A DNA stretch of 64,000 nt from NCBI GenBank assembly GCA_949286115.1, contig CASEBK010000033.1:1-64000 (forward strand). The letters are read 5' to 3'. Position numbers and translations under genes: made by a program. Below are positions 9,566 to 60,996 of this stretch, one piece after another (position 1 is the first letter of the stretch; each line of letters begins with the position of its first letter). This stretch comes from an uncultured Veillonellaceae bacterium (GTDB lineage Bacteria > Bacillota > Negativicutes > Veillonellales > Dialisteraceae). A model generated the notes under the pieces. It did not search any database. It was not told the DNA's origin and saw only the letters and a program-made list of their open reading frames with translations.

Positions 9566-10396
9566 TCAGTCCCACGCGGGCTCGATGGTGCCTTTGTATT
9601 TCTCGGCGATGAACTGCTTCACCGAGTCGGACTGGTAGGCTTTCACGAATTTCGCATAGGCCGGATCGTCCTTGTCTTTCTCACGGGCGGCGATGATCAT
9701 CACGGCGAGGGGATTGTCCTTCGCTTCGAGGAAGATGCCCTGGTCTTTCGGGGAGAGCCCGGCGCTCATGACGTAGTTCATGGTGATGACGGAAGCGTCC
9801 ACGTCGTCCAGACTGCGCGGGAGCTGCGCCGCTTCGAGCTCGCGGAATTCCAGATGCTTCGGATTGTCCGTGATGTCTGCGGGGGTCGCCGTATTGCCCG
9901 CGCCGTCCCGCAGCTTGATGAGCCCGGCCTGCTGGAGGAGCTGGAGGCCGCGGCCTTCATTGGTGGGGTCGTTCGGGATGGAGATGACGCCGCCGTCGGG
10001 GATGTCCTTCACGTCTTTCACGGTATTGCTGTAGATGCCCATGCGCATGAGAATGGCGTTGCCGATGGCGGTAAGGTGCGCGCCTTCCTGCTGGTTGAAA
10101 TTGTCGAGGAAGGGCTTGTGCTGGTAGACCGCCAGATCGAGCTCGCCGTCTTCCAGCGCCTGGTCCGGGGTGATGTAATCAGAGAATTCCTTCACGTTCA
10201 CTTTGAGGCCGTTCTTCTCTGCTTCTTTCGCGGCGGCTTCGACCACTTCCGCGTGAGGGCCGGCGGTGGCGCCTACGGTGATCTCCGTTTTCTCCGGTTT
10301 GGCCGCCGGCGCGGAGCCGGAGGAGCCGCCGCATCCGGCGATGCATGCCGCTGCGGCGAAGGCGGCGAGACTGGCGAGGATGAGTTTTTTCTTCAT
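9566..10396 (-). CDS. metQ: Methionine ABC transporter substrate-binding lipoprotein
   Basis: A 276-residue NlpA/MetQ protein that captures methionine outside the inner membrane and delivers it to MetNI. A lipoprotein signal ends in the lipobox IAGC with C22 as the lipidated residue. Family motifs include VGATAGPHAEV and the FSDYITPDQALEDGELDLAVYQHKPFL region. It is the last gene of metN-metI-metQ, controlled by the upstream SAM-I riboswitch. Confidence 0.95.
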   Translation of the reverse strand: MKKKLILASLAAFAAAACIAGCGGSSGSAPAAKPEKTEITVGATAGPHAEVVEAAAKEAEKNGLKVNVKEFSDYITPDQALEDGELDLAVYQHKPFLDNFNQQEGAHLTAIGNAILMRMGIYSNTVKDVKDIPDGGVISIPNDPTNEGRGLQLLQQAGLIKLRDGAGNTATPADITDNPKHLEFRELEAAQLPRSLDDVDASVITMNYVMSAGLSPKDQGIFLEAKDNPLAVMIIAAREKDKDDPAYAKFVKAYQSDSVKQFIAEKYKGTIEPAWD

Positions 10397-10473: not shown

Positions 10474-11127
10474 TCAGCGCTTGTCTGCGCGGCGGGCCAG
10501 ATGGCTGCCGATGAACTGGATGGCCTGGACGATGACCACGAGCACCACGATGGTGGCGATCATCACGTCGGCCTGGAAGCGCTGGTAGCCGTAGCGGATG
10601 GCCAGGTCGCCCAGACCGCCGCCGCCGATGGTGCCGGCCATGGCGCTGGAGCCGATCAGGGTGACGACGACCACGGTCATGGTTTCGATGATGGCGGGGA
10701 GCGCCTCGGGGATGAAGACTTTCCAGATGATCTGGAAGGGCGTGGCCCCCATGGATTCCGCTGCTTCAATGAGGCCGGAGGGGATCTCGCGGATGGAGGT
10801 CTCCACCATGCGCGCCGTATAGGGGATGGCCGCGATGGTGAGCGGTACGATGGCGGCGGTGGTGCCGATGGACGTGCCGGCTACGAGGCGCGTGAACGGG
10901 ATGATGGCCACCATGAGGATGATGAAGGGGATGGAGCGCACCACGTTCACGATGAACGAGAGCGGCTTATTGAGCGCCGGGCAGGAGAGGATGCCCCCTT
11001 TTTCTGTGACGACCAGGAGGATGCCCAGGGGGATGCCCACGAGGGCGGCGATGAGCGCGGAGACGCCCAGCATGTACAGCGTCTCGCCGAGACTTTTGAG
11101 AAGCAGATTAGTTATGATGGGGGACAT
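10474..11127 (-). CDS. metI: Methionine ABC transporter permease
   Basis: A 217-residue membrane subunit with five predicted membrane segments and the EAA loop (EAAESMGATPFQIIWKVFIPEALP) that contacts MetN. The start at 11127 (MSPIITN) lies inside the 3' end of metN (20-nt overlap), with GAGG upstream. A longer in-frame start at 11193 would read further into metN and is unlikely. Confidence 0.94.
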   Translation of the reverse strand: MSPIITNLLLKSLGETLYMLGVSALIAALVGIPLGILLVVTEKGGILSCPALNKPLSFIVNVVRSIPFIILMVAIIPFTRLVAGTSIGTTAAIVPLTIAAIPYTARMVETSIREIPSGLIEAAESMGATPFQIIWKVFIPEALPAIIETMTVVVVTLIGSSAMAGTIGGGGLGDLAIRYGYQRFQADVMIATIVVLVVIVQAIQFIGSHLARRADKR

Positions 11128-53593: not shown

Positions 53594-54240
53594 ATTGGGG
53601 AGAGGCGCTGCTCAGTCTGGTCTTTCCCTGCTGCTGCCCGGGATGCGGACGCATGACGGAGGCGGAGCGGCCGTGGTGCGAGGCGTGCCTACGGAAATTC
53701 TGGGAGCCTCGGCTTATCAGCGGCTCCCACAGCGGAGCGCTGGAGGGGTGCTACACCTGCTGCCGCTATACCGAAGGCATTCGGGCCTGCATCATCCGGT
53801 TGAAATATAATAGGGAGAAGTCTCTGGGCCGCGCGTTTCCCATGCTGCTGGAGCGTTTCCCCTGGTGGGACCGGCTCGCGGCGTACGATTTGGCCGCGCC
53901 CGTTCCGCTCTCCCGCGCGCGGAAGAAGAGCCGCGGCTACAACCAGTGCGATGTGATCTTTGCGTCTTTCATGAAACGCGTGGGAAAGACCTACGATGCG
54001 GAGCTTTTGGTGCGGCTCCGCGACACGAAGGTCCAGTCGACGCTCGACAGAGAGGCGAGGCAGCAGAACGTGAAAGACGCTTTTCATGTGAACCGCGGCC
54101 GCAGTGTGGCGGGGCGGCACATCCTGCTCCTGGACGATGTCTACACCACCGGGGCGACGCTTCGGGAGGCGGCGCGGGAACTGCGCCGGGCGGGCGCCGT
54201 CTCCGTGATGGGATTTACCGCTGCGAGCGGCGCACGATAA
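53590..54240 (+). CDS. comF: ComF family protein
   Basis: 216 residues. The N-terminal zinc-finger-like cysteines (CCCPGCGRM, CEACL, CCRY) and the C-terminal phosphoribosyltransferase-type motif LLLDDVYTTGATLREAA identify ComF. The protein is needed for DNA uptake in competent bacteria, but many non-competent species carry it. The start is GTG at 53590 inside the recD2 stop, with GGGGAGG upstream. Confidence 0.93.
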   Translation: MNWGEALLSLVFPCCCPGCGRMTEAERPWCEACLRKFWEPRLISGSHSGALEGCYTCCRYTEGIRACIIRLKYNREKSLGRAFPMLLERFPWWDRLAAYDLAAPVPLSRARKKSRGYNQCDVIFASFMKRVGKTYDAELLVRLRDTKVQSTLDREARQQNVKDAFHVNRGRSVAGRHILLLDDVYTTGATLREAARELRRAGAVSVMGFTAASGAR

Positions 54241-54242
54241 AA

Positions 54243-54277
54243 GACCCCGGTCATTGGAATGACTCGGGGCCTTTTTA
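54243..54277. terminator. Bidirectional terminator between comF and the HD-GYP gene
   Basis: CCCCGGTCATT (54245-54255) pairs with AATGAC-CGGGG (54258-54269, one bulge). There are T runs on both strands. Confidence 0.8.
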
Positions 54278-54294
54278 TAGGGCCTTCGTAGAGA

Positions 54295-54900
54295 TTACGG
54301 ATACAGCACGTGGAGGAAGGCGATCACGACTTCCGGATCGAACTGACTGCCGGAGCCGCTGAAGAGCGCCTGTGTCACGTCCTGCTTCGTCCGCTGGGGA
54401 AAATCCGGCGCGGAGTAGATGGTGCCGTCGTAATAGTCAGAGATGGCGAGGATGCGCGCGCCCAGCGGAATGTTCACGTTCTTCAGGTGCTTCGGATAGC
54501 CGCCGCCGTCCCAGCGCTCGTGATGAAAGCGGATGTAGGGGATGAGGTCCTGACAGGCGGGATTCGTCTCCAGCATGTTCGCGCCCAGGTCAGGATGCTT
54601 CTTGTACTGCTGGTATTCTCTCGTAGACAGGTTGGGGTAGCGGGAGAGCACGCGATTAGCCACCGTGAGGAGTCCGATGTCGTGAAGGAGTCCCGCATAG
54701 TGGATGAGCGTCACCTCATTGGCGGGCAGGCGCATGTGGAGCGCCGTCGCTCCGGCAAAGTTGGCGACCCGCACAGAATGCTCATAGAGCGCCTGCGATT
54801 TGAGGCGCATGAGGTAGGTGAAGTGGAGCGTGATATCTTCCAGCGTGTCCCGGATGCTGCTGAACGCAGCGGGCGTTTGAAAGAGAGAAGAAGTATACAT
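54295..54900 (-). CDS. HD-GYP domain protein
   Basis: 201 residues with a single HD-GYP domain and no receiver or sensor domain. The HD part has LLHDIGLLT and KKHPDLG; the GYP part has HHERWDGGGYPKHLKN. HD-GYP proteins usually hydrolyse cyclic di-GMP. The canonical HDIGK is HDIGL here, so activity is uncertain. The start at 54900 (MYTSSLF) has a weak ribosome binding site (GGATGG); a TTG at 54933 is less likely. Confidence 0.83.
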   Translation of the reverse strand: MYTSSLFQTPAAFSSIRDTLEDITLHFTYLMRLKSQALYEHSVRVANFAGATALHMRLPANEVTLIHYAGLLHDIGLLTVANRVLSRYPNLSTREYQQYKKHPDLGANMLETNPACQDLIPYIRFHHERWDGGGYPKHLKNVNIPLGARILAISDYYDGTIYSAPDFPQRTKQDVTQALFSGSGSQFDPEVVIAFLHVLYP

Positions 54901-55008: not shown

Positions 55009-55260
55009 TCACGCTTTGTCGTGACGCTTCAGCCATGCAGTCATATAGGAGCACTCTGAACGGATCTCTTTATGCTGACTTCGGGTGTAGTCCCAGGCGG
55101 CGCCGGCAAGCTGCCCTGCCAGCCCCCGTCCGGAGAGCGCAGACGGCACGACCGTGTGGAGCACGGTGACAGCCCCGTCATCCTCTTTGTATTCCAGCCA
55201 GGAAATGCCTTCCGGATTTTCAATGGTGAATTTATGATTTGTCGTATCGTGATGGACCAT
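55009..55260 (-). CDS. Small GNAT-like acetyltransferase (YjdJ/COG2388 group)
   Basis: 83 residues, far shorter than typical GNAT proteins but the normal size for this subgroup. HTVVPSALSGRGLAGQLAGAAWDY is the acetyl-CoA-binding motif A, and CSYMTAWLKRH is the conserved C-terminus. The substrate is unknown. AAAGGAGG precedes the ATG. Confidence 0.85.
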   Translation of the reverse strand: MVHHDTTNHKFTIENPEGISWLEYKEDDGAVTVLHTVVPSALSGRGLAGQLAGAAWDYTRSQHKEIRSECSYMTAWLKRHDKA

Positions 55261-60054: not shown

Positions 60055-60193
60055 ACGGACAATCCCCATTCGCGCAAAGCAGCGGTAAACAGAGGCCTGA
60101 TCAGCATAAAATCACAATCTTTCGCATAGCAGAAAACCGCTTCGCGAAATCCTCCCTGCCAACGCCAAGCAGATCTCCCCAAATGAGCAGACA
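60055..60193. other. Intergenic stretch before the CRISPR relic
   Basis: No coding, tRNA or terminator signal seen. A further repeat unit would be expected at about 60126-60158 by period, but the sequence there shows only a faint tail-like resemblance (CGCGAAAT). It may be an eroded repeat or leader. Confidence 0.5.
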
Positions 60194-60429
60194 GTCACAT
60201 CCCCCGCGGGATGTGTGGATTGAAATATGAATGCCGAGTCAGGTATTGACGCCGTCCGCGAGTCACATCCTCCGCGAGATGTGTGGGGTGAAATTGTATC
60301 CAGTGGGCGTCGTTGCCGCTCCCCTTCCCATCGCATTCCTTGCGGGGTGCGTGGATTGAAATAACTGGAAGGCGGGCCTTGCCGTGTGAGATCCCCGGTC
60401 GCACTCCTCACGGAGCACGTAGGTGAAAT
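60194..60429 (+). CRISPR. Orphan, decayed type I-C-like CRISPR array (4 repeats, 3 spacers)
   Basis: Four degenerate repeats lie at 60194-60226, 60262-60294, 60330-60362 and 60398-60429 (33, 33, 33 and 32 nt), separated by three spacers of exactly 35 nt. They start GTCACATC, GTCACATC, ATCGCATT and GTCGCACT and end GTGGATTGAAAT, GTGGGGTGAAAT, GTGGATTGAAAT and GTAGGTGAAAT. They match the type I-C repeat pattern (GTCGCACTCC...GTGGATTGAAAT). No cas gene is in the window, and each repeat differs from the others, so this looks like a relic. Confidence 0.85.
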
Positions 60430-60936
60430 GGGAGGATAAAAATAAGTGAGAATTAAAGAACTCAAATAAAAAGGCTCACAAAATTGCCTGATGCAGACGA
60501 GCGGCTGATGGCTCGATCGTCCAGCGCGATTTTGGAGCTTTGTTGTAAGAGAGAATAGCTGCTAAGCAAAACGCCGGGCGGCGCATTTTTTCCGGTGCGA
60601 GGAGGCGGCATGGGGCGTACCGTGTGGTTCGTGTTTTATGGGATGAAATGAAACACTGAGACGAAGTCGGGGCACCAGGAATGATTTGAGAATGCGGCGG
60701 ATTATGAATGCGGAATAAAAGCCTGTATGGGAAGAAACGACGGGGAAATGACAGGGAGCACATAGGCCTGCTTTAGATGAAACATGACGGCTGGAAAGAT
60801 GGGGGCCGCCGCAGCTCTGCAGGATGGGGAGACACGTAATTTGGGCGTGGGACATCGCGGTTCGAATACGGGTCAAAATTTAGAAAGGACATCTTCTTTG
60901 GCAAAAGGGAAGGAGGCTCTGTGATTGATGCAAATA
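60430..60936. other. Intergenic stretch without a supported gene
   Basis: About 500 nt. Short frames exist but have no ribosome binding site or recognisable protein. A GGTTCGAAT element near 60860 resembles a tRNA T-loop, but no cloverleaf surrounds it. Base composition is lower in GC than the flanking genes. It may be eroded CRISPR-locus or mobile DNA. Confidence 0.5.
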
Positions 60937-60978
60937 AAAACAGGCGGTCTGCCTATGGTGGGGCAGGCTGCCTGTTTT
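60937..60978. terminator. Terminator after the gamma-carbonic anhydrase-like gene
   Basis: AAAACAGGC (60937-60945) and GCCTGTTTT (60970-60978) pair, with an inner TCTGCC/GGCAGG-type stem. It serves the minus-strand operon. Confidence 0.85.
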
Positions 60979-60996
60979 GTTTTGTATGAAGAACGA

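Follow-up and report, generated by a model that had tools for sequence, protein, structure and literature searches.

A degenerate type I-C-like CRISPR array at a rearrangement scar in a Veillonellaceae genome

Type I-C CRISPR arrays consist of 33-nt repeats that end in GTGGATTGAAAT and are separated by spacers of 34–36 nt. Repeat mutations in CRISPR arrays build up leader-distally and spread via duplicated repeats (PMC4869251), and among hairpin-forming repeats the compensatory base pairs differ between members of one motif family (PMC3783184). Degenerate repeats also occur in CreA genes, which have two divergent repeats and no leader (PMC8501985, PMC9458426). Here, we describe a locus in an uncultured Veillonellaceae bacterium that can be compared with each of these. 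It resembles type I-C arrays in its repeat length, 8-bp hairpin, GTGGATTGAAAT handle, 35-nt spacers, and an I-C cas operon in the same genome, but it lacks identical repeats, a detectable leader, and adjacent cas genes. Like the leader-distal degenerate repeats of other arrays (CRISPRDetect, PMC4869251), it combines trailer-ward mutation with preserved spacing, as does the intact I-C array of a sister species, G002; however, its leader-proximal part is absent, and decay has reached all four repeats. As with the ectopic repeats of CreA/CreR, the repeats are divergent, show no detectable leader, and share the genome with a complete type I system; in contrast to CreA/CreR, there are four of them in regular spacing, and no neighbouring promoter gave a seed match.

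The locus lies near the right-hand end of the window (the whole 64,000-nt stretch of DNA analysed) and comprises four type I-C-like 33-nt repeats in a strict 68-nt period (Table 1). The original prediction, made from the letters of the window, had placed a relic CRISPR array here, with every repeat different and three spacers of exactly 35 nt, all of which was borne out; it had counted three repeats and overlooked the fourth. Compared to the intact host repeat, GTCGCACCCCTCGCGGGGTGCGTGGATTGAAAT, repeats 1 to 4 carry 5, 9, 4, and 11 mismatches out of 33, the last figure being partly inflated by a one-base deletion. When the surrounding kilobase was subjected to 200 dinucleotide shuffles as a chance control, the best match had 12–17 mismatches, as against 4–11 in the relic repeats, and elsewhere in the 64-kb window a single stretch falls within 12 mismatches of the host repeat. 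The locus thus has the kinship to the resident repeat, the regular spacing with unique spacers in the 34–36-nt range (35, 35, 35), and the I-C cas genes in the genome that mark a type I-C array, but not the near-identity of repeats, no two of the four being alike; since all of them differ, it is a relic rather than a working array. Repeat 1, whose five differences from the host consensus are all transitions, has kept a perfect hairpin and an unbroken 11-nt 3′ handle, and repeat 2 has the 4-21 and 7-18 pairs in common with it. Repeat 3 has two G-U wobbles, a foldable hairpin, and an unbroken handle. Repeat 4 is the most decayed, with two broken stem pairs and the one-base deletion in its handle. 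By predicted fold, the canonical hairpin is lost in repeats 2 and 4 (in repeat 2 it is not the minimum-energy fold), and the handles of both are mutated.

Table 1. Features of the relic array and the surrounding scar (positions are those of the window)
Feature	Position	Strand	Description
Non-coding rearrangement scar holding the relic	60055..60996	.	Flanking genes not neighbours in two sister species
Relic repeat 1	60194..60226	+	GTCACATCCCCCGCGGGATGTGTGGATTGAAAT
Spacer 1	60227..60261	+	35 nt
Relic repeat 2	60262..60294	+	Private C10T, G16A, A26G, T27G
Spacer 2	60295..60329	+	35 nt
Relic repeat 3	60330..60362	+	Host-type with G1A, C7T, C8T, C12T
Spacer 3	60363..60397	+	35 nt
Relic repeat 4	60398..60430	+	8-17 pair of sister-species type

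The host species, placed in the Dialister family on the basis of its nearest named hits, is represented by one genome (1.86 Mb, 49 contigs), in which curated models identified a complete type I-C operon, cas3, cas5c, cas8c, cas7c, cas4, cas1c, and cas2, on the same contig as the relic (C33). The operon spans about 85619–93385 (cas3 to cas2), 25 kb downstream of the relic, and an intact array of identical repeats runs from 93508 to the contig end; operon and array together lie 25–33 kb downstream of the relic. Contig C26 opens with more identical repeats, and contig C3 has a four-repeat mini-array. These findings agree with the expectation of a type I-C array with cas genes elsewhere, for which a search of the rest of the genome had been proposed. 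Because the genome contains both the complete operon and intact arrays, we regard the relic as a decayed satellite of the resident system: it is very probably a fragment of one of its type I-C arrays that was cut off, carried lineage variants of the repeat, and then decayed neutrally.

Several further features of these arrays were observed. The end of C33 inside the array (L029:13985-14045) decays into G runs and resembles a sequencing or assembly artefact; C26 starts in the same repeat type, and the two contigs may join there. Several spacers of the main array on C33 and C26 (L029:13680-13984, L030:45-215) share RCAATAGGCA..., ending in a T run, a resemblance suggestive of related sources. 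The C3 mini-array (about 78628-78864, minus strand; L031:8629-8865) has three perfect host-type repeats, one decayed repeat, and three 35-nt spacers. A prophage that also encodes an amidase endolysin and an integrase harbours this mini-array, immediately upstream of a gene for an LPD3/LPD23 protein. The I-C array of G002 (contig C1, about 53600-54900) contains three inserts of 366, 250, and 410 bp (L077:9604-9969, 10136-10385, 10486-10895) between otherwise good repeats, in place of the usual 33–37-nt spacers. The protein fragment encoded by the second insert matches an LPD3/LPD23 large polyvalent phage protein (50% identity over 42 aa). The inserts could be oversized spacers, the result of misassembly, or the outcome of recombination with a phage mini-array. 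A viral contig (IMGVR_UViG_2636415832_000004, L112:7100-7400) holds an I-C-like mini-array with five repeats; one of its spacers occurs twice in tandem.

The exact spacing had been taken as something that random decay would not leave standing, which proved wrong. In the intact arrays of the host genome, 35 nt is the commonest spacer length (13/26, followed by 34 nt with 7/26 and 36 nt with 5/26), and its frequency is 0.34 when the host genome is pooled with G002. Three consecutive 35-nt spacers therefore have a probability of about 0.04 (genomes pooled) to 0.12 (host alone). Beyond this, the spacing of the relic requires merely the absence of indels between the repeat starts, a distance of about 205 bp; the single indel of the relic, in the handle of repeat 4, lies beyond the last repeat start.

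The stems carry two kinds of change. In repeats 1 and 2, A4-T21 and T7-A18 replace the host G-C and C-G pairs, and in repeat 4, T8-A17 replaces the host C-G pair. T8-A17 is the consensus state of the sister species G002 (GTCGCACTCCTCGCGGAGTGCG), and the T7-A18 pair is also present in G011, of the same family; an exact-pattern search for the complete repeat-1 type found no match in the other genomes searched. Read from the sequences, these two-sided differences are repeat-lineage variants, as found between species of the genus. Six stem changes are private, each to a single relic repeat, with three breaks and three G-U wobbles: one C-A break and one G-U in repeat 2, two G-U from C-to-T changes in repeat 3, and two breaks in repeat 4. 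None of the six is compensated, and almost all changes in the relic repeats are transitions. The claimed matching of changes between the two arms therefore holds for the lineage states (4-21, 7-18, and 8-17) but not for the private changes, and repeat 3, which had been quoted as compensated, retains its two C-to-T changes as wobbles. Uncompensated private changes fit neutral decay after an earlier active period, and they lend no support to the suggestion that the hairpins of the relic were under selection. Repeat 1 still has a flawless hairpin and handle, and its two co-changed pairs have a probability of 0.036 if changes are independent; selection on the hairpin is therefore likely for the active phase of the array, and neutrality is apparent only in the decay that followed. 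The intact array of G002 shows a similar course: its last two repeats differ from the consensus by 5–7 changes and have either a single broken pair or three wobbles, and this trailer-end decay resembles that of the relic repeats.

Alternatively, two arrays of unlike repeat type may have recombined and then decayed, leaving a fossil of composite origin, which is unlikely, though the strongest of the other readings. Repeats 1 and 2 share four states absent from repeats 3 and 4, and repeat 4 matches the sister-species type, so the proposal that two repeat types were joined is upheld weakly, for the lineages of repeats 1-2 versus 4. However, leader-end variants copied on acquisition give the same pattern, and their spread within one array suffices; in addition, the G-U intermediates of repeat 3 at 7-18 and 8-17 fit stepwise change within one lineage.

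It is quite improbable that the locus is a retained orphan mini-array, still transcribed and Cas5c-processed, with its hairpins under selection. The hairpins and handles of repeats 1 and 3 and the complete I-C system in the genome speak for it, but repeats 2 and 4 have neither a canonical hairpin nor an intact handle, none of the private changes is compensated, and no promoter-like site was found on the + strand in the relic region. The proposed search of the spacers against phages, plasmids, and the host likewise yielded, at the sensitivity of each search, no protospacer for spacers 1–3: none in phages, none in plasmids apart from one chance-level match, none in IMG/VR viral contigs (exact 20-mers), and none in the own and sister genomes (blastn).

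Still less probable is a CreA/CreR-like origin, in which ectopic degenerate repeats would give a guide RNA that represses a nearby toxin or the cas operon. The divergent, leaderless repeats of CreA genes and the presence of the relic and the cas operon on the same contig are in line with it, but the locus has four repeats with array-like 35-nt spacers, not one or two. When seed positions 1-5 and 7-11 plus a TTC PAM (PMC8501985) were scored against shuffled spacers, matches in the flanks and the cas operon were at chance level (best 7/10, no better than shuffled spacers); the lowest tail among nine tests was 4/100, for spacer 3 upstream of cas3. Just as doubtful is an exapted guide source, in which the intact repeat 1 and spacer 1 would still give rise to a crRNA-like RNA guiding Cascade to a chromosomal site of weak match, a role for which the hairpins would have been kept. 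Transcription or processing of the relic to any effect today is improbable.

The position of the relic was compared with G001 and G002, two other species of the genus (bins labelled Veillonellales and Veillonellaceae). The 942-bp scar has a HAD-IIB hydrolase gene on its left and a gamma carbonic anhydrase gene on its right. In both sister species, an epimerase and a response regulator come after the HAD-IIB hydrolase gene and no CRISPR is present there; the neighbour of the gamma carbonic anhydrase gene is a small acetyltransferase-like gene (55009-55260 in the window), from which an infC-rplT-...-HAD block separates it in the host genome. Since the sister species have other neighbours on each side, the relic lies at one margin of a rearranged block. 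On C3, which has the epimerase end of the former junction, a galE-like gene is followed by an IS3-type transposase and the prophage, whose own mini-array is about 4 kb away. Recombination between arrays was considered as the cause of the rearrangement and is not adopted here: the arrangement on C3 is suggestive but offers no usable junction. The scar and its flanks showed no domains and no cas or prophage homology beyond the repeats themselves, and a search of RNA families gave no match at the array. Upstream of repeat 1, the best local alignment scores to two leaders were equalled by 74 and 39 of 1000 shuffles. As no leader-like sequence is demonstrable there, the orientation of the relic and its trailer-end origin rest on analogy.

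Taken together, the relic would most likely be what is left of the leader-distal (trailer) end of an array, or of a small satellite array, formerly served by the chromosome's own I-C Cas proteins. The compensated stem differences would be older than the decay and would have spread by repeat copying during spacer acquisition; the fragment was then probably separated from its leader and cas genes during the rearrangement of this stretch and, after that, would have decayed mostly by transitions. The relic is a genomic fossil of an ordinary kind, and nothing points to present-day selection on its hairpins. Although of little import for general biology, it marks a chromosomal breakpoint in the genus and neatly illustrates that an array fossil can show "compensated" repeats in the absence of selection today: repeat lineages differ from one another by compensated pairs, which decay does not produce.
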